From: a virus
Virus record (IMG/VR): IMGVR_UViG_3300024518_002918
Span: 1-21,744 of that record
Length of the DNA stretch: 21,744 nt
Strand: one strand, 5' to 3'
Each line of letters opens with the position of its first letter. Positions within the stretch are counted from its first letter, which is position 1. Below the pieces are notes generated by a model. The model was not told where the DNA came from. It saw nothing but the letters and a program-made list of their open reading frames with translations, and ran no database searches. Both the position numbers and the translations under genes were made by a program. Shown piece after piece: positions 5,826 through 21,744 of the stretch.

Positions 5826-6520
5826 ATCGTCAGGGTCTTAAATTCCGAACCATTCGGGCCAGCATACTTCTTGATTACTGACTTATTATGCGCTTCCATC
5901 TCTGGCCGTGTATCATCCCACTTGCTGTAATTGTGCGTACCGAGTGTCTGGGATCGTACGTTATTATTTGGATCTGAATACCAGGTAGTCATCTCAGCCC
6001 ATACCTGATTCAAATCATCAGGGATTGCAGGTGAACCGTCCCAGAGCCAATCAGCATCAACGGCCATCTGTACGCAAAAACAAGATGCAGTAGCACAGAA
6101 GCACCAATCCTCACAATCTTCGATGTATTTAATAAAGCCCTGTCGCTCTTGTAGTCGATATTCATCAGGGTCGAGCGTTCTAAATGTCACACCGTCTTTC
6201 ACAAGCTTTACAGCGTGTACGTCTGTGCATGGATCAATGACAAGGAAATGATCTTTTAGATTATAGCGGTACATCCTATAGGCATACACAACCGCATCCG
6301 GGTCTTCCAAATCATCTACATCAATGTTCGGGCACGGGCATTCGAGTGCAGTCTTACCAATTTCGGTATATTCGTTATCGTTAGCATCTGCTTCGGTTAA
6401 CGTAAAACCTAGCATCGTTTCAAGAATCCGCTGCGTTCGAGTAATCTGAGCGGTTACGACGTCTACACGGTTTGCTGGAACCGTTATACCAGTTAATGTT
6501 TCGTATTCATTCAATGTCAT
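5822..6520 (-). CDS. Head-tail connector (adaptor) protein, Cys-rich
   Basis: This 232-aa protein is the likely connector that docks on the portal. The N-terminal 'LNEYETLTGITVP' and following helix resemble gp6/gp15-type adaptors, and the C-terminal 'SVIKKYAGPNGS' is basic. I chose the ATG at 6520; a longer frame would start at 6562 inside the terminator hairpin with no ribosome site. The chosen ATG also lacks an SD but lies exactly six bases after a TATAAT box, suggesting a leaderless message. Eight cysteines occur at residues 61, 63, 98, 136, 140, 142, 147 and 149. The cluster C-x3-C-x-C-x4-C-x-C lies in a possible loop and could bind metal, which is unproven. It is longer than simple adaptors of about 100 aa, so an extra domain is present. 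Confidence 0.78.
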   Translation of the reverse strand: MTLNEYETLTGITVPANRVDVVTAQITRTQRILETMLGFTLTEADANDNEYTEIGKTALECPCPNIDVDDLEDPDAVVYAYRMYRYNLKDHFLVIDPCTDVHAVKLVKDGVTFRTLDPDEYRLQERQGFIKYIEDCEDWCFCATASCFCVQMAVDADWLWDGSPAIPDDLNQVWAEMTTWYSDPNNNVRSQTLGTHNYSKWDDTRPEMEAHNKSVIKKYAGPNGSEFKTLTI

Positions 6521-6601: not shown

Positions 6602-8515
6602 CTAGCTTACGCCAGGTGCTGACATGCCGACGACACGGCTTGTGTCTCGGATTGCTGCACCGCGGAAGAATGAGCCACGAAGGACTAATTCATTTCGCTG
6701 GAATGCGCTCTTAACTGTTCCGCTTTCCTCGTAAGCAGCTTCGGTCGAGAGGTCGAATGAAAGACCACCACTCTGACGTCCGCTGAACTTCGAAGCATCG
6801 ATGTAGAATACTGCCTCTGTGATCGTCACAGTTGCACCTTCTACAGTGAATGACTTCGTTTCTGCTGTGTTCAATGTTGGGAGAAGTTCGTTCGGTACAA
6901 CGATGTATGGTGAACCTGCGATTAACGGCTGATCACCAGTGGTGAACAGACCTGCCAATGGCCCACTAATACCTGCGCCAATTGCTGTGCTCAGTAGCTG
7001 ACCATAAGTCTTCTGGTTGAAGATGAATACGCCGCCCATAATCTCTTCCTGTGCAAGCGTCCAAGTATCAATCCAACTCTTGAGACTATTTACGTCACTG
7101 GTTGTAGCGTACGTGATCGACTGACCGGTTGCATCAACTGCCTGCTGCATGCGCGCAATGGCGAGCTGTGACTTCTTACGATCATGATCCGTTCGATAGC
7201 CTTGTGAGATGTCACCAATCATGTCAGTTGCAAGGAATCGCGTAGCGTTGTTACAAACTGGTGTAACTGCTGCAAGCTCCTGCAAGTTCGATGTATTGAT
7301 ATTCGCCGTGTACTCACTGATTGGCTTCAATTCACCGTCTGCACCGTCGTTGCAATTCTCAACTTCCGTCATATCAACGTCACCGTCGCGTGTCAACCAT
7401 GACATTTGGAGACTGAGTGTCTCTCGGAATTCGAGGATACTCAAGAATGATGCAAAGTCGCTGCGAAATCCCTCAATATCGCTAAGCAACTCTGGTGAGA
7501 TAACGAAGTTGCCAAAGTCAGCAATCGTCATCGCGTTCGAGACTTTGCCTTCCTTCTGCAATGCTTCTACATGGAACTTGTTAACATCTTCGAGCTTCTT
7601 ACCAGCTTCCTGGTTGCCGCCCTTGAGGTAATCCCATGCGTAATTGATCTGATTCTGCGTACGTTGCAGATGATCCATCGATGAGAGTTCGTTCGAAACA
7701 GACTTAGCCTTCACGTCTGTTTTGGTAAACTCTGGTTCCTTCGCCGAGTTGTCAAAGACCTTCTGCTCAATTGCATCGATCTTTTCGTTTACTTCCGTAA
7801 AAGCACTTTTGATAAGCTCACTAACAGACTCATCAGTCTTTTCAGCCGGTGCGTCTTCCTTGACTTCTTCTTTTGGCTCATCTTGTACTTCCTCTTTTAC
7901 TTCCTCCTTAACTTCTTCTTCGTTCTTCACTTTTTCCTTCATGCCTTTTTCCAAATTAGTTTCTTGCTCCCCATTTTTAGTTTCCTGTCCATTCAAGTAT
8001 ACTTTTTCCACAGAGCTGGTGTCAAGACCGTTCTTCTGGGCCTTCTTCACAGAATTCAGCGCGACTTCATTGATCGCCGCTGATTTGTTATTTCCCATGA
8101 CAACTGCGCTCAATCCAACTAACTCTGCATCATGATAGACACCGTCGTCATCCGGTGGTGGCCCGACTGTCTCAATTGAGAAGTCTGTCAGGAACCCACC
8201 TTTAATCATGTCATACGAGAACTGCGCTAATGCGCTCTCTTTTGTTGCGAACTTGATACCGTCAATCGTTACCTTATTCCCTTGCTTCTTTACGCCAAAG
8301 GTCTTACCGATAATCTCTTGAATATCGTTGCTATGATTTGCTGTAAGATTGTCCTTATATGCATCAAGCTTCATTGAGGGAATATCGTAACGGGTGTCAT
8401 TCCATTGCGTTGAATCATCGGTGATTGTCAGACTGTTCGTGAAGCTAACCGTATCGGTACCATCATCGACAATAGTGTTCGTATCAATGCTGAACGTTTG
8501 CGTATATTTACTCAT
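6602..8515 (-). CDS. Prohead protease-scaffold-major capsid fusion polyprotein
   Basis: The 637-aa product combines three head functions. Residues about 1-160 resemble HK97-type prohead proteases (peptidase S78): His61 in 'NHSND', Ser113 in 'FLTDFSIETVG', and a following 'AELVGLSAVVMGNNKSA' strand. Residues about 185-265 are Glu/Lys-rich and helical with five EEVK-type repeats, like the delta/scaffold region. Residues about 270-637 form an HK97-fold capsid, with 'DFGNFVISPELL', 'GGVFIFNQKTYGQL' and a final 'FQRNELVLRGSFFRGAAIRD'. In HK97 the protease and capsid are separate genes. Here cleavage between scaffold and capsid would release the shell protein. The ATG at 8515 overlaps the previous stop by eight bases; a TTG at 8605 extends the frame but lacks an SD. 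No separate protease or scaffold gene is present in the window. Confidence 0.9.
   Translation of the reverse strand: MSKYTQTFSIDTNTIVDDGTDTVSFTNSLTITDDSTQWNDTRYDIPSMKLDAYKDNLTANHSNDIQEIIGKTFGVKKQGNKVTIDGIKFATKESALAQFSYDMIKGGFLTDFSIETVGPPPDDDGVYHDAELVGLSAVVMGNNKSAAINEVALNSVKKAQKNGLDTSSVEKVYLNGQETKNGEQETNLEKGMKEKVKNEEEVKEEVKEEVQDEPKEEVKEDAPAEKTDESVSELIKSAFTEVNEKIDAIEQKVFDNSAKEPEFTKTDVKAKSVSNELSSMDHLQRTQNQINYAWDYLKGGNQEAGKKLEDVNKFHVEALQKEGKVSNAMTIADFGNFVISPELLSDIEGFRSDFASFLSILEFRETLSLQMSWLTRDGDVDMTEVENCNDGADGELKPISEYTANINTSNLQELAAVTPVCNNATRFLATDMIGDISQGYRTDHDRKKSQLAIARMQQAVDATGQSITYATTSDVNSLKSWIDTWTLAQEEIMGGVFIFNQKTYGQLLSTAIGAGISGPLAGLFTTGDQPLIAGSPYIVVPNELLPTLNTAETKSFTVEGATVTITEAVFYIDASKFSGRQSGGLSFDLSTEAAYEESGTVKSAFQRNELVLRGSFFRGAAIRDTSRVVGMSAPGVS
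7859..7918 (-). repeat. Five imperfect 12-base repeats encoding EEVK
   Basis: Five 12-base units within the capsid polyprotein encode EEVK, EEVK, EEVQ, DEPK and EEVK. The codons vary between units, so the repetition is kept at protein level more than at DNA level. They belong to the charged helical scaffold-like segment between protease and capsid domains. Confidence 0.8.
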
Positions 8516-8702
8516 CCTGTTTCTTGAACTTACGATTCTTTCTTTTAACTTCGACCTCGTGTTTTGCGAAACTGTCATTGTGGACGTTAGGCCCACCGAA
8601 CTCAACCATTGGCTGTCTAGTTTCTTTGGTATACTCGTCTAACTGCTTTTGGCTAAGCTTGTAATGCGGATTCCTCTTCAGTTTCTCAAGTGTATTGTTC
8701 AT
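8508..8702 (-). CDS. Small basic phage protein, unknown function
   Basis: This 64-aa protein is highly charged and mostly basic. It has an N-terminal 'NNTLEKLKRNPHYKLSQKQL' segment, a middle 'MVEFGGPNVHNDSFAKH' and a lysine-rich tail ('VKRKNRKFKKQDE'). I recall similar short proteins in the structural clusters of other phages, but the function is unknown. The basic tail could bind DNA or the acidic scaffold, which is speculation. It starts in a TAATG overlap with the 40-aa gene upstream and overlaps the capsid ATG by eight bases at its end, so it is co-translated with the capsid polyprotein. Tight coupling on both sides argues that it is real. Confidence 0.75.
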   Translation of the reverse strand: MNNTLEKLKRNPHYKLSQKQLDEYTKETRQPMVEFGGPNVHNDSFAKHEVEVKRKNRKFKKQDE

Positions 8703-13699: not shown

Positions 13700-14192
13700 C
13701 TATTTTCTCTGTTGTCCACGAGAAACCCCCATTACTTTTTCGTGTGAACTTTGTAACAAGTTTAAAACTGTCAAACTGCTCTTCAACAGAACTCAACCGA
13801 CCCTGACTATCTTTGAAAATCTGGCCGCTATTCGATTCCTCATCAATGAATATATTCTGAACTTCAAGAACGGCATTCTTGATAATGCCTTCCACCTCTT
13901 TCTCTGTAGCAGGTTGCACTCTATCCAACTCAAGACTGATGAGACGCTCGATACTCTTCCTAATGTCTACTGAGAGCCCCTCTTCCTTCTTCTCCTGCGT
14001 CTTAAGATAATCAACGACAGTATTCTCCGCAAGCGCATCGATTCCTTTGGCGATCTTTTGGACATGGTTCAACACCTCATTGCGATCCCGCTCAGCGAGC
14101 TTCTTTGCTTTTATACGAAGCTTCTCTGTCGTCTTTGCGAGTGAGGTGTTACGTTTCTTTTCTGCTTTTTTCTTGAGATCATCTAACTTCAT
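13692..14192 (-). CDS. Coiled-coil protein after portal, unknown role
   Basis: This 166-aa protein is almost all helix for its first 115 residues, opening 'KLDDLKKKAEKKRNTSLAKT' with further Lys/Glu-rich heptads. The C-terminal 50 residues change to strands ('FKLVTKFTRKSNGGFSWTTEKI'). Coiled-coil proteins at this position could be scaffolds or base pieces for the following fibre. The C-terminal part resembles attachment tips of fibre assemblies. It starts in an ATGA overlap with the portal gene and overlaps the fibre-like gene by eight bases, so it may be made in step with it. A scaffold-like role is less needed because the capsid polyprotein carries its own scaffold segment. Function unknown. 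Confidence 0.6.
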   Translation of the reverse strand: MKLDDLKKKAEKKRNTSLAKTTEKLRIKAKKLAERDRNEVLNHVQKIAKGIDALAENTVVDYLKTQEKKEEGLSVDIRKSIERLISLELDRVQPATEKEVEGIIKNAVLEVQNIFIDEESNSGQIFKDSQGRLSSVEEQFDSFKLVTKFTRKSNGGFSWTTEKIDG

Positions 14193-16456
14193 AGTCCTTC
14201 AAGTAGATCATCAAGTTCATCTACATCCTTCGCAAAGTCCCTCTTCTCCTTATTCACTTCCTGCCGTTCCTTTCGCACATCCTTCAAGACTTCTTTTGCT
14301 TCTTTGACTTCATTGATTATAGCGTTCTCAGCTTCTGTTCGAATAACGAGTTCGTAAATACAAGCACAATTCACATGTGCGTTTCCAGCCTCAAGATCGG
14401 TATAGTTCACATCCAATACTTGCTTGCTATCGCCCTTGCCAACAACAACCGTATCCCCAAGGTTTCTAAAGTTGCTATCAAATGGAACCTCACCCTCGGC
14501 TTCTAAGGAAAGACAGAAGTCACATGGATCATCAGAGCGCGTTACCCATCGCTTAAAGGCACGGCTCTCTAAACCGTTCTGGCTGATGAACTGACGATCT
14601 GCATCAAACTGCGCCATGGTAAATGCACGATTCGTTTCAGTACGTGCTATCGCTTTAGCCCTGTTCTCAGAGATCTTCGTACCGAACGATTCCGTGATCT
14701 TTCCTTGAATCTCAACAACAGATAGGCCTTGTTTCGCACCATCTCGTGCCACTTGTAATACATCGCTTACAACAGTATCGACGTGAGACTTGGCGGTCTT
14801 CTCAGAGATCTTGTTAATAAAAGCGTTTGAGTTCTTATCAATCTTGTACTGACCTGGAAGTGTAAACGTGCTGATCCTCTTGTTAATCACGTTCTGTCCT
14901 TCTAGGAAGAATACGACTCCATAGAATTCGATTAATACCGTCTTGAGTTCCCTCTCTACGCGCTCCTGCTCTGTAGCTGTGACAAGGTCATCTTCCTGTA
15001 ATTGATTATCGATCTTCTTTGGCAACCGATCTATAGCAGCAATAACGAGCTGCTCCTCAGCCTTAATAATGGCGTTTTGTAATGCACCCTGCTGCTCTTG
15101 TACAAGACCCTGTTTCTCCTCTGCCTTCTCTTCTTCGAACTGATTCAATGTAAAAGATTCTTCTGTAAGGTCTTCTTCTAGCTCCTCGGGTTCTTCGGAT
15201 TCTTCGTCTTCATCTTCTGGTGGTGGTATAATCGGCTCTGGTAATTCAGGCTCACCGATTGCATCAATATCTAACGTACCGTTAACATACCCAGCCGCTG
15301 TATCTTCGTCATAACCAAGACGGATCATTTCAATGAAAAGCTCTAGCTCACTTGCACGCACATCGTTTGCAAGCTTGTCTCCAGCATGGTCAACAGGCAG
15401 TGGGTTATCAACAACAATAACAGCTTGATTGCTTTCAAAATCTTTAGGATAGAAATTCTTATAATCCTGGTTTAGGGCATCTGTGATAAGAGTGATACGC
15501 GGCAAGATATGATCTTCAATACTGAGTTGCTTCTGTACACCAGCAGTATCTCGTGTTGTACCAGATTGCTCGATATTCATCGTTGTCTTGGAAACACCCA
15601 TGACAGAGAATAGCGTATCGCGGTTCACTTCATTCACATCCTTCAACGCAGACTTCGATAGTTCAACACCCATACTTTGATATTTGATTGAGTTAGCTCC
15701 GTTACCGAATACCACCTCACCCTTGGTGTGTCCCTTAACTCGATCTGTAAAGTTTGTGAATTCTTCGTCAGGTAGGATAACGTCAGTCGATAGAATACCA
15801 GGTGAGTTGATATTATGCTTCAACGAATGACGTGTATGATCGTTAGCCGTCTTCAATGTGAACTGACTCTCTCTCGCAGCATCCGTTAATGAATACGAAC
15901 TATTTTCATCAAAAGGGTTAAGCTCACGCATCTCGATAATCATCTCTTTCGGTATCTCTCGGATTTGACCATTACGCGATTCGATATATCCTGCAACTTC
16001 AAATGTACTCTTATCGATAACACGCTTTACATCGAAAGGGTTTAAGAGTTTGAATTCTGTCACATTGCCGATACGTTCACCTTCAACTGCGCGTACTACC
16101 ATAAGATAATACACACCTTCGAGATCCATGTATGTTGATATATCGTTCCAAAATTGTGTGTCTGTGAATGTAGAGGAGTCTTCAATCACTTCGAGATACG
16201 GGTGTACAAAACCTTCTATCTCAGAGACAGTTCGTATATTCTCGGTTGCTGTCTTCTTGACCTTATTAGCACGATTCCGAATAGCAGCATATGAATAGCC
16301 AGTATAGAAATCTTCGTCCTTCATATTGATCTGCGTCCAGTCGGCAGTCATCATTTTGTTGCCGTGCTTCAAAAACTGTCTTGGCAGAGACATAGTGTTT
16401 TTCGCTGGAGACACAATACCTGCGATTCTACTACGGAGGTTATCTATCGTACTCAT
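14189..16456 (-). CDS. Portal protein fused to MuF-type minor head domain
   Basis: The 755-aa product joins two head proteins. Residues 1-395 resemble HK97-type portals, which form the 12-subunit ring for DNA entry and exit: 'YTGYSYAAIRNRANKVKKTA' near 51-70, 'KLLNPFDVKRV' at 136-146 and 'RDTLFSVMGVSKTTMNIEQSG' at 279-299. Residues 400-450 are an acidic, Pro/Glu-rich linker. Residues about 470-705 carry a Mu gpF-like domain: 'RAKAIARTETNRAFTMAQFD', then Cys645 and Cys648 in 'DPCDFC', then 'HVNCAC' with Cys697 and Cys699. The last 50 residues are a charged coiled coil. MuF proteins are usually separate genes next to the portal and enter the head in small numbers. The start overlaps the terminase stop as TAATG. 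No toxin domain follows MuF. Confidence 0.9.
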   Translation of the reverse strand: MSTIDNLRSRIAGIVSPAKNTMSLPRQFLKHGNKMMTADWTQINMKDEDFYTGYSYAAIRNRANKVKKTATENIRTVSEIEGFVHPYLEVIEDSSTFTDTQFWNDISTYMDLEGVYYLMVVRAVEGERIGNVTEFKLLNPFDVKRVIDKSTFEVAGYIESRNGQIREIPKEMIIEMRELNPFDENSSYSLTDAARESQFTLKTANDHTRHSLKHNINSPGILSTDVILPDEEFTNFTDRVKGHTKGEVVFGNGANSIKYQSMGVELSKSALKDVNEVNRDTLFSVMGVSKTTMNIEQSGTTRDTAGVQKQLSIEDHILPRITLITDALNQDYKNFYPKDFESNQAVIVVDNPLPVDHAGDKLANDVRASELELFIEMIRLGYDEDTAAGYVNGTLDIDAIGEPELPEPIIPPPEDEDEESEEPEELEEDLTEESFTLNQFEEEKAEEKQGLVQEQQGALQNAIIKAEEQLVIAAIDRLPKKIDNQLQEDDLVTATEQERVERELKTVLIEFYGVVFFLEGQNVINKRISTFTLPGQYKIDKNSNAFINKISEKTAKSHVDTVVSDVLQVARDGAKQGLSVVEIQGKITESFGTKISENRAKAIARTETNRAFTMAQFDADRQFISQNGLESRAFKRWVTRSDDPCDFCLSLEAEGEVPFDSNFRNLGDTVVVGKGDSKQVLDVNYTDLEAGNAHVNCACIYELVIRTEAENAIINEVKEAKEVLKDVRKERQEVNKEKRDFAKDVDELDDLLEGL

Positions 16457-18583: not shown

Positions 18584-18764
18584 TGATCTCCTTCCTGCCG
18601 ATGTACGTAAAGCTGCATTCAACAATAAATATCTTCATAAGCCAATTCCTAGAACAGGTGTACCTATACCTTTTTATCGCTTCCCCAGTATCGCTCTTAT
18701 AGCCGGTTAGATACTCTATCTTTTCCATTGGTTTCCCACAGCCCTTACAATAAAGTTCGATCAT
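18576..18764 (-). CDS. Small Cys-containing protein, zinc-binding candidate
   Basis: This 62-aa protein has Cys6 and Cys9 in 'YCKGCGKPM', then 'YLTGYKSDTGE' and Cys37 and Cys50. An N-terminal CxxC with two further cysteines is a common design of small phage zinc-binding proteins. The ATG overlaps the stop of the glycosyltransferase gene as ATGA, with AAGGG ten bases upstream. Its end overlaps the DUF1360-like gene by eight bases. The function is unknown; it could bind RNA, DNA or a protein. It is one of three Cys-pair proteins in this part of the operon, which share little sequence beyond the knuckles. Confidence 0.72.
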   Translation of the reverse strand: MIELYCKGCGKPMEKIEYLTGYKSDTGEAIKRYRYTCSRNWLMKIFIVECSFTYIGRKEIND

Positions 18765-19534
18765 TTTGTTTGTACCCTTCTTAGCGTCCAGCCGTTCTTG
18801 CTTAAATCATCCCTTGTAAATTGCACCTGCTCAATGTTTTGTCCCTCGAAAGATACCTCTCCCTTCTTCATAAGATGACGACAATGCACAGAGTTATCCA
18901 CATAGTTGATAAGTCCATTTCTCCGCATGGTTAAGCCATAATCTACGTCTGGGCCAAGAACATCCTCGAATGGCAGGAAATTGTGCCCAATATAGTTTTC
19001 CTTCTTGGTGAGACAGCAATAGAATCCTGCTGCATCTACTTTCTCAACCGTACTCTTCAAGGGTGTACTGACGATCTCATTCACATCATAAACATCATCA
19101 ACTTTCCAGGCTCCTATATGCAGATACCCCCATCGTCCCAACTCCACACCGGATATGAATCCTGCATTGGGGTGACTTACATATGACTGCATCAGCTTTG
19201 ATAAAGCATTGCCTGGCACAATGGTATCATCTTCGATCATGAAGATATAATCACAGGCCTGGATTAAGTCTTTCATCTCATTGTGCACATCAGCGATTCT
19301 TTGTCTGCGTCTTTTAATACTAGACGTGCTTGGTAGGCCTTTTCCTCTAAAGACACAAAGACGGTCTTTGAACTTACTATTCACTGTGTAGTTTCTTACC
19401 TTGTCGAATAGACGATGGTCTGAATCTACATAGGTCAGAAGGTTCGTATCTTTAGGTACCTCAAGGAACTCAAGAGAGGCAAACAATTGTTCTAAGAATG
19501 TTCCACGTGAAACTGGTATGACTATTGTGATCAT
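18761..19534 (-). CDS. Glycosyltransferase, GT-A (GT2-like)
   Basis: This 257-aa protein opens 'MITIVIPVSRG', the first strand of GT-A enzymes. The acidic motif IEDDT (100-104) would bind metal and nucleotide sugar. 'GPDVDYG' (194-200) lies where the acceptor-site acid is expected, and His217 and His220 follow in 'SVHCRHL', as in GT2-like enzymes that end with a metal-binding His. There is no transmembrane helix, so it is probably cytosolic. The natural donor and acceptor cannot be told. It lies in a cassette with two other glycosyltransferases and overlaps genes on both sides as ATGA. It may glycosylate phage proteins, phage DNA or host glycans. The enzyme class is reliable; the target is not. 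Confidence 0.85.
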   Translation of the reverse strand: MITIVIPVSRGTFLEQLFASLEFLEVPKDTNLLTYVDSDHRLFDKVRNYTVNSKFKDRLCVFRGKGLPSTSSIKRRRQRIADVHNEMKDLIQACDYIFMIEDDTIVPGNALSKLMQSYVSHPNAGFISGVELGRWGYLHIGAWKVDDVYDVNEIVSTPLKSTVEKVDAAGFYCCLTKKENYIGHNFLPFEDVLGPDVDYGLTMRRNGLINYVDNSVHCRHLMKKGEVSFEGQNIEQVQFTRDDLSKNGWTLRRVQTK

Positions 19535-19776
19535 TTTTCCAATTCTTTTCGTGCGATCTTTTCTATTGCATTAGTAGACGAAGCAGTGAGGTCTTGGTAA
19601 TAACCGCATCGTTTGCATGTAACAGCATAACGCCTTGATGCAATAATTACGATCTTAATATCAAAGTCTTCATGTTCGCAATCTTCCTGTATGTTGCGAC
19701 GTTCGAGTCTTTTTAATCGTGACTCAATATTCTCTGTATCATCTTGATTAGTCTCACATTTCTTAGAAAACCACAT
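19531..19776 (-). CDS. Small Cys-containing protein with helical N-terminus
   Basis: This 81-aa protein has a charged helix ('NIESRLKRLERRNI') followed by Cys33-x-His35 and Cys54-x2-Cys57 ('TCKRCGYYQDL'). The set Cys-x-His and CxxC fits a zinc ribbon. The ATG at 19776 is chosen for GAGGA seven bases upstream; a GTG at 19788 would add four residues but has no site. It overlaps the next gene as ATGA and lies 13 bases after the GT-B gene. The function is unknown. The pairing of helix and zinc ribbon allows binding to nucleic acid or to a partner enzyme. I have no family name for it. Confidence 0.7.
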   Translation of the reverse strand: MWFSKKCETNQDDTENIESRLKRLERRNIQEDCEHEDFDIKIVIIASRRYAVTCKRCGYYQDLTASSTNAIEKIARKELEK

Positions 19777-19789
19777 GATATTCCTCACA

Positions 19790-20830
19790 TTATTTATTGA
19801 ACAATTCTTCGTACTTCGGTCTTAATACTGTATCGCTAAAGTTATTATACCCTAGATCAAATGCTTCGACCTTCATTTGTTCCATGTCTTGACCTACGAT
19901 CCAATCGATCTTCTCAGCTAAGGCATCAATGTCAGATTGGTAGACATCAATTGATACCCTCGCTACAAACGATTCCTTGAACGTCGCAGGGTATAACCAC
20001 TCTTTAGGCAGTAACTCGTTATTCGGGCTTATATCAGGCATGAATACTGGGAGCCCTGACATCAAAGCTTCGTTCGTTGTAAGGGAAAGACCAGCATAGC
20101 GTCGTGGGAGGATTAACGCATCGAAATCAGCGTACATGTCCTGTGCTTCTTGTGCATTCTCAACACGGTACTTTATGCGATGATCTGTTCTCATGTACTC
20201 ATCTGGCAGGGGCTGTTGAGAACGAATGACAATCTCGTAGTCTGACTGTGACTTTTCCACAGCATTGAGCAGGTCTAGTGTACCATTTCTGTCATTCGCT
20301 GCTAACGTTCCAACGATATGCAGGAACTTCTTGGTACCTTCTCTTTCAAAGTTCTCTTCCCGCGCTTCCTTAAATTCATTCGGGTCAATTGGTGGTGGTA
20401 GATACATGACCTTATCGTCACCAAATCTTTCTTTCATTGTATCCACATGCCAGTAAGAAGGCATCAAGAATTTATACGGCAGTGCAATATTCCTATTGAG
20501 ATGGTCGCAGAATTCGTAGTTGCTTTGTATGTAGACCTTAACCCCCACGCGCTCAGCAATAGACATGAGATTCAGATTCAGCGGGTTTTCACACACAAGC
20601 ACATCAGTTAAACCTTGCATGAATTTCCTAATCTCCATGTTGTTCGGAAACCCTTTTACAAGGTAGCCATCAAAGCCATCATACCAATCAAAGTGCTGTT
20701 CCTTATTCTTCGAGAAGCCAGATGAATCGATCGCAAGGATACGATCTGGTTTTAACATGTACGTCAGACGACGCGTTTGCGCACCGAGTCCACTATTATT
20801 CGCGAATACGATTAGTCCGAGTTTTACCAT
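19790..20830 (-). CDS. Glycosyltransferase, GT-B fold (GT4-like)
   Basis: This 346-aa enzyme has an N-terminal 'LIVFANNSGLGAQTRRL' with the Gly-rich loop typical of GT-B acceptors. In the C-terminal half, 'FLHIVGTLAANDRNG' and 'GLSLTTNEALMSGLPV' (247-262) form the donor-binding region; the latter is the GT4 signature with Glu254. It is about the usual length for the fold. No membrane segment is seen. It would transfer a sugar from an activated nucleotide donor to an unknown acceptor. It overlaps the upstream glycosyltransferase by seven bases and is followed by a small Cys-pair protein. As in the other enzymes of this cassette, the target might be virion proteins, DNA or cell-surface glycans. 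Confidence 0.88.
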   Translation of the reverse strand: MVKLGLIVFANNSGLGAQTRRLTYMLKPDRILAIDSSGFSKNKEQHFDWYDGFDGYLVKGFPNNMEIRKFMQGLTDVLVCENPLNLNLMSIAERVGVKVYIQSNYEFCDHLNRNIALPYKFLMPSYWHVDTMKERFGDDKVMYLPPPIDPNEFKEAREENFEREGTKKFLHIVGTLAANDRNGTLDLLNAVEKSQSDYEIVIRSQQPLPDEYMRTDHRIKYRVENAQEAQDMYADFDALILPRRYAGLSLTTNEALMSGLPVFMPDISPNNELLPKEWLYPATFKESFVARVSIDVYQSDIDALAEKIDWIVGQDMEQMKVEAFDLGYNNFSDTVLRPKYEELFNK

Positions 20831-21744
20831 GTTTGTGTGTCATCATATTTAGCTGCGCCAGCACGACCGTCTGTATGATACGACCGCTTAATATTATCTC
20901 CCTCTGGGTGATAGATATGAAGTCTCCACTGATTCCAGCCCTGCTCCTTATCTTTCTTCCAGTCTTCAATCACCTTGCCATGTACTAAGTCTTCTATGAA
21001 ACAGTTTGCCTTATCTGAAAACTGTTCTGATAGAAGTCGGCGATAGAAAGCAGTACTCGCAATGTGTGGTCTCTGGCTCCACTGCACAGTCTTCAAGAAC
21101 TCATTCTCTGGCTCACCGATCATTAGGTGTTTATGTTCATCTGGTACCATAGCCTCGAAATGTAGGCGTACAAGATTCGAATCACCAGTAGTAATCAACT
21201 CCACAATCTTATCGATATCGATAGCACAATCCGTTACGAGTGGCGTATCCTGTTCAACGTACATAACAAAGTCGGAAAAGACATGGTCTATCACCTTACG
21301 TGCCATGCCGACCTGGTGTACGTGCTCGTCAAATATATAAGGCGTAATACCCCACTCTGAAGCTTTCCATAGTACACGGCGGATATGCTCCTCATAGTCT
21401 GCACGCATGTGTTCCTGTTCTTCCCTTACACCGTCAAATGTAACGATGATCTCACTGTGTGGAAGATGGTGTCTAACGCTGTTAATCGTCTCTTCAATGA
21501 TTGATATATCTGGGTGGCTCTTAATTGGTGATACAGGAATAATTACAGATACATTTTTGTCATTAGTACCTTGCATATCAAATCCGAGAGAGTGCATCTG
21601 ATTTAATAAAAGATTCTTCATCCATATTTTATATTTGATCCATGACTCTTGAACTTTATTGTTAACATTGGGGTATTGGGCTAGTAACTCATTTGTATAA
21701 CCTGGTAAGCTAGACCAATCAGATATTGTTGTGAGCTCGATCCT
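20824..21744 (-). CDS. Glycosyltransferase-like protein, partial (N-terminus beyond window)
   Basis: The frame is open from the stop at 20824 to the right edge: 306 residues are visible and the N-terminus is missing. An internal Met at 21621 has no SD and is preceded by 41 open codons, so it is not the start. From about residue 65 a GT-A domain begins ('VSVIIPVSPIK'), with 'TFDGV' and 'VMYVEQDTPLV' (the EQD at 164-166 in the DxD position). Later come 'VRLHFEAMVPDEHKHLM', 'WSQRPHIAST' and 'CFIEDLVHG', patterns shared with phage glycosyltransferases I recall. The unseen N-terminal part could hold a second domain; the visible 60 residues before the GT-A strand look helical. The enzyme class is good; the substrate is unknown. 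Confidence 0.8.
   Translation of the reverse strand, partial: RIELTTISDWSSLPGYTNELLAQYPNVNNKVQESWIKYKIWMKNLLLNQMHSLGFDMQGTNDKNVSVIIPVSPIKSHPDISIIEETINSVRHHLPHSEIIVTFDGVREEQEHMRADYEEHIRRVLWKASEWGITPYIFDEHVHQVGMARKVIDHVFSDFVMYVEQDTPLVTDCAIDIDKIVELITTGDSNLVRLHFEAMVPDEHKHLMIGEPENEFLKTVQWSQRPHIASTAFYRRLLSEQFSDKANCFIEDLVHGKVIEDWKKDKEQGWNQWRLHIYHPEGDNIKRSYHTDGRAGAAKYDDTQTW

Follow-up and report, generated by a model that had tools for sequence, protein, structure and literature searches.

In phage lambda (C/Nu3) and in the herpesviruses (UL26/UL26.5), one reading frame yields both a protein combining protease and scaffold and a product that lacks the protease. The closest described counterparts of the gene studied here are fusions of the protease to the capsid protein itself. 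Such capsid-protease fusions were reported in Arthrobacter AM, AU and AN phages and in RRH1 (PMC5513430, 2017), they have been called common in small-genome siphoviruses (PMC9671004), and more of them were described in PMC12760985 and PMC13313380. Across these papers, the groups with published fusions are Arthrobacter AM/AU/AN, Microbacterium EE, Arthrobacter AW and Rhodococcus CF phages (PMC5513430, PMC9671004, PMC12760985, PMC13313380). Family models exist as well, namely NF045541 and the PHROGs entry phrog_4523, annotated as "major head and protease protein".

The DNA analysed here (the window, that is, the whole stretch of 21,744 bases, an IMG/VR virus record) carries one gene that a sequence-only reading had considered unusual in kind, for joining prohead protease, scaffold and major capsid in one polyprotein. 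Because protease-capsid fusions had already been described, this view was not borne out, and the gene is better regarded as a divergent addition to a fusion type already known. Such a protein raises the question of how a shell forms from subunits each carrying a protease, to which a second start codon would be a concrete possible answer. The interpretation we favor, with a probability of roughly 0.6, is that of a single-chain head-maturation module read from two starts, with the protease dose set by translation.

The fusion gene, its neighbors and its relatives

The 637-aa open reading frame at 6602-8515 was confirmed, but on the minus strand, with its ATG at 8515 and its stop ending at 6602; a plus-strand reading of this interval was ruled out by its many stops.

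6602..8515, minus strand: protease-scaffold-capsid fusion gene, 637 aa (translation; 13 full-length relatives)
8508..8702, minus strand: 64-aa ORF, its stop overlapping the ATG of the fusion (ATGAGTAA)

The ATG at 8515 was taken as the start because it is matched by where the relatives start and shares bases with the stop codon of the 64-aa ORF; an in-frame TTG at 8605 represents an alternative upstream start, which would yield 667 aa. The full-length start lacks a Shine-Dalgarno (SD) sequence (-0.2), and it is possibly coupled in translation to the preceding 64-aa ORF. Profile searches with window proteins placed a portal-MuF fusion (16456-14189) and a tape measure gene (3589-1754) on either side of the fusion gene, which comes after portal/MuF and before the head-tail genes, an order shared by three relatives (L001, L003 and L024).

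Some features of these surroundings can be recorded in their own right. The portal and a MuF-like head protein are likewise fused, both in the window (14189-16456, minus, 755 aa; PF04860, phrog_2662) and in L001 and L003, and the L003 version (L003:511-3513) is interrupted by an intein-like sequence flanked by "HPNC" and "SNCACEY" (PF14890, E=1e-9). Near the terminase, positions 18761-21621 of the window (minus) hold three glycosyltransferase-like or hypothetical genes, and the interval 19790-20830 matched glycosyl transferases group 1.

Thirteen homologues were found, 12 in IMG/VR and one in a bacterial MAG (L030); those that were aligned over their full length show 47-62% identity to the window protein. 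All 14 members are full-length fusions in one uninterrupted frame; since the whole frame is kept open in the 13 homologues, the ORF is not a product of chance. Searches with the 637-aa protein against Pfam, NCBIfam, PHROGs and PDB sequences yielded nothing significant, the sole head-related PHROG match being a weak, non-significant one to phrog_3270, "head maturation protease" (E=0.0087, residues 56-292), and tblastn in phages detected no relative. A scan of genome contigs gave one relative locus, L030 (CALMES010000058.1), in an assembly titled Candidatus Peregrinibacteria; on this basis the family may infect CPR bacteria, a binning error being possible. The window family adds, in any case, a divergent protease-capsid group without a useful database match, one of whose members is in a Peregrinibacteria MAG. 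Among the relatives, L004 carries ~120 extra residues ahead of the protease domain (L004:1318-1683; no Pfam match), and in L006 a protein of >1000 aa (L006:1-3399), made largely of repeats like "SHTTDANKRKA", adjoins the head genes.

The protease domain

8066..8476, minus strand: S78/assemblin-like prohead protease domain, residues ~14-150 (AF2 model; Foldseek against PDB and BFVD)
8333..8335, minus strand: His61 codon, candidate catalytic His (invariant in 14/14, alignment)
8177..8179, minus strand: Ser113 codon, candidate nucleophile (invariant in 14/14, alignment)

The sequence-only reading had proposed S78-like protease features at the N-terminus, namely His61, Ser113 and an AELVGLSAV strand. 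All three are as described: DSSP assigns a strand to residues 131-138, and H61 and S113, together with E115 and T116, are invariant in the 14 aligned members. An AF2 model of residues 1-165, built from the 14-sequence alignment (pLDDT 80.5, pTM 0.74), was compared by Foldseek and retrieved assemblin/S78 relatives. BFVD gave 93 viral matches at E<=1e-3; prohead proteases make up most of those that carry a name, and several of the matched proteins were 558-685 aa long, one of them named major capsid protein. In the PDB, herpesvirus assemblins and T4 gp21 (TM 0.50) headed a list whose matches are individually weak (best E 0.008) but belong to one superfamily. At the sequence level, the window protein had no PF04586 or TIGR01543 match in Pfam and NCBIfam, and hhalign of the window family against known S78 sets was not significant. 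The predicted fold supports the assignment of the N-terminal domain as a capsid maturation protease of the S78/assemblin type, with putative catalysis.

The linker and the capsid part

7721..8062, minus strand: low-complexity scaffold/delta-like linker, residues ~152-265, with EEVK repeat (alignments; varies among relatives)
6605..7702, minus strand: capsid-like domain, residues ~272-637 (alignment; gene position; weak Foldseek matches)

The scaffold-like EEVK segment noticed earlier is indeed present in the window, but it is not a family feature: the repeat is peculiar to the window among the 14 members, and the relatives have other sequence in its place. Ten of the 14 carry a small module of ~45 aa in the linker ("MKFVTIKNSRDF..."), starting M(K)(F/Y)VT(I/V)KNSR, whereas L003, L004 and L010 have unrelated low-complexity sequence instead. 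The module, "MKFVTIKNSRDFxVxVKYKNAAGxxVExxLxxGxxVDVSEDQ", is found in L001 (2973 onward), L005, L006, L011-L013, L015, L016, L024 and L030, and not in the window.

Conservation is highest over the C-terminal ~395 residues, where the mean column identity in the family alignment is 67%. An HK97-fold capsid had been proposed for this region, of which the capsid-like nature stands, resting on conservation and on the fitting gene position, and the fold itself is proven neither by profiles nor by the model. Profile searches with the window protein gave no match demonstrating an HK97 fold, and hhalign of the capsid parts had no power, as known capsids miss each other too. The AF2 model of the capsid part had a mean pLDDT of 45, and its top Foldseek matches, which included the NF5, PLE-hijacked, T7, phiTE, D3 and T5 capsids, were non-significant (E>=0.55).

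A candidate internal start between protease and capsid

7940..7942, minus strand: ATG codon 192, sole Met of the linker, candidate internal start (ATG there in 14/14 members)
7952..7954, minus strand: TTG codon 188, alternative internal start with SD-like GGGGAG upstream (-6.7 kcal/mol; window only)
6602..7942, minus strand: predicted nested scaffold-capsid product without protease, 446 aa (from the conserved internal start)

The linker ATG lies 22-46 residues past the end of the protease in 13 of the 14 members, and 102 residues past it in L015, which has an insertion there; other Met residues are scarce in the linkers (10/1419 residues, 0.7%). In 10/14 the small module begins with this Met; in the four members that lack the module, the Met was equated by position, and MAFFT leaves it unaligned. 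An SD of -5 or lower precedes the linker ATG in 8/14 members, while for other Met codons the figure is 27/168 (Fisher p=0.001), and the mRNA around the linker ATG folds less (-3.3 vs -6.7 kcal/mol, p=7e-5), a difference to which composition may contribute in part. Among the six members with an SD above -5, the L001, L003, L011 and L030 phages use little SD elsewhere, unlike the window (-3.3) and L010 (0.2); in five of the 14 there is no SD at all before the linker ATG, and four of these five show little SD at other genes. ATG192 of the window has a weak SD, and the stronger one precedes TTG188.

A second candidate, Met382 (nt 7370-7372, minus, capsid domain), is also ATG in 14/14, with SD-like upstream sequence in most members; it was set aside as an internal start because it sits in a conserved capsid motif, of which it is probably just a part. 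The Met382 pattern implies that a conserved Met accompanied by an SD may reflect protein constraint.

These data bear on the earlier claim that each capsid subunit would carry its own protease, so that the protease-to-capsid ratio would be fixed at one. Judging from the sequences, this is probably wrong: a start codon conserved between protease and scaffold/capsid in three families (the other two are described below), usually with ribosome-binding-like sequence, would yield a protease-free chain, and the ratio would then not be fixed. The second start codon predicts, for the window, a nested scaffold-capsid product without protease, although the window's own signal is weak.

Candidate internal starts in known fusion families

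Phages of the phrog_2263 type (EE, AN and RRH1-type) have the ATG in 12/12 cases, with an SD of -5.7 or lower in 11/12 compared with 47/386 other in-frame start codons, and the residues encoded at the start signal differ among them (RED, KEE, KEA, KED, REA, EGT, QEH). In six EE phages, GAGAGG or AAAGAGG precedes an ATG between the protease and a helix, despite varying linker length and residues, and the same arrangement is found in the AN phages Decurro, Noely and Sputnik, as well as in RRH1 and McGonagall; in EpicDab the sequence upstream of the ATG is a weaker AAGG. In the EE phage Anseraureola, the ATG is codon 166 of gp5. Since the three of these phages that were scanned all fall in phrog_2263, they are not fully independent of one another. 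An ATG of EpicDab at 5870 (PMC9671378) corresponds to a different proposal, as it lies ahead of the protease and concerns a holin-like N-terminus.

The phrog_3270 type was represented by 15 phages of Arthrobacter, Gordonia, Streptomyces, Rhodococcus, Curtobacterium, Microbacterium, Bifidobacterium and Lactococcus. One alignment column holds start codons in 15/15 (12 ATG, 1 GTG and 2 TTG), all with an SD of -5.7 or lower, and it is the only column with at least 93% start codons; the chance that the three non-Met codons in it would be start codons is ~0.02.

Relative to other in-frame ATG/GTG/TTG codons, the SD enrichment gave p=2e-11 for phrog_3270, 3e-9 for phrog_2263 and 1e-4 for the window family, values that are too small because the sequences are related. 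When compared with synonymous shuffles of the same residues, the SD was in general no stronger; this applies to phrog_3270 and phrog_2263, where protein-level selection could consequently account for it. An internal start in protease-capsid fusions was not found described in the openly accessible literature.

Taken at its broadest, the proposal would be that tailed-phage protease-capsid fusion genes generally carry a conserved internal start, and that most chains in the shell are protease-free capsid chains, co-assembled with a minority of full-length ones, a generalization whose odds we place slightly above even. If it is true, single-protein annotations in public records hide the true major capsid precursor, and hundreds of deposited protease-capsid fusion annotations omit the major product.

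Proposed mechanism and alternative explanations

The fusion, the protease fold and the conservation have a basis in sequences and models; what we infer is the two-start reading, how much of each chain is made, the cleavage, and the position of the mature end. Briefly, translation from 8515, a start without SD that overlaps the previous stop, would produce the full-length protease-scaffold-capsid chain as the minority product, and translation from the linker start (ATG192 at 7942 or TTG188) would produce the protease-free scaffold-capsid chain as the majority. The shell would consist mostly of short chains, with some full-length ones co-assembled through the shared capsid domain and, as a consequence, the protease would be carried inside the shell. 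Proteolysis would start at assembly, when linker and protease would be cut off near residues 265-280 and then released. With the dose of protease set by translation, early cleavage would be limited by this low dose and by concentration-dependent activation.

A rather unlikely alternative, which nevertheless deserves weight, is that, in keeping with the sequence-only reading, the gene makes one polyprotein only, so that every capsid subunit brings a protease. The linker Met would then have no special role, and premature cleavage would be avoided because protease activity requires concentration within the assembled shell. The frame is uninterrupted in all 14 members, the SD at the window's ATG192 is weak and, in the related families, the SD does not exceed the synonymous null, all of which would suit such a protein. 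It would not be expected, however, to retain a single ATG, in all 14 members, within a linker that otherwise varies, to let GTG and TTG substitute for ATG at one phrog_3270 position, or to maintain the phrog_2263 start signals with differing encoded residues.

It is improbable that the linker Met simply marks the junction of once separate protease and scaffold-capsid genes, fused by stop loss, with the start persisting as an unused relic. The protease and capsid genes of HK97 are adjacent and separate, and in 10/14 members the Met opens a small module resembling a protein N-terminus, as such an origin would predict; yet a relic would decay, and the ATG is kept in 14/14 at 47-62% identity, most members from SD-using phages have an SD, and the phrog_3270 codon varies among start codons only. 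There is equally little to recommend a degenerate, non-catalytic protease retained for scaffolding, cleavage being left to another protease or not taking place: the invariant Gly134 where the S78 "EVSLV" strand has Glu and the lack of a significant S78 profile match speak for it, but the Gly134 register (against phrog_3270 proteases) comes from a non-significant hhalign alignment (E 0.009), the invariance of H61, S113, E115 and T116 would be needless in a dead enzyme, and no other protease gene was recognized among the eight window proteins searched.

Comparison with known systems

The two-start reading can be set against several described arrangements. The actinophage fusions (Microbacterium EE, Arthrobacter AN, Rhodococcus RRH1, Gordonia EpicDab/McGonagall) likewise encode an S78 protease, a variable linker and a capsid as a single gene product of 524-661 aa, and have a lone ATG with SD-like sequence just past the protease core. 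Unlike the window protein, with which they share no detectable sequence similarity, those scanned match TIGR01543, and EE retains the Glu of the S78 "EVSLV". The phrog_3270 fusions (Arthrobacter AU ScienceWizSam, Lactococcus P162/CHPC971, Rhodococcus Pepy6, Gordonia, Streptomyces) also have protease, helical linker and capsid in one gene, and an SD precedes the candidate internal start in all 15, but this start is located past the helical linker, beside the capsid, and their alignment with the window family is not significant. The NCBIfam prohead protease/major capsid fusion NF045541 (scaf_prot_MCP2) is of the same fusion type and of similar size (634 positions), although the window protein has no match to it.

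HK97 gp4 and gp5 resemble the window protein in the type of protease, in the similar His-Ser spacing (65/114 in gp4 versus 61/113 in the window) and in the delta-like segment ahead of the capsid. They differ in that protease and capsid are encoded by two separate genes, and gp4 Glu141 ("REISV") corresponds, in the register of a non-significant alignment, to Gly in the window family. If the two-start reading is true, the protease-to-capsid ratio is governed by translation, as in lambda C/Nu3; the nested product of C/Nu3 and UL26/UL26.5 is the scaffold alone, whereas the one predicted for the window would carry the capsid protein as well.
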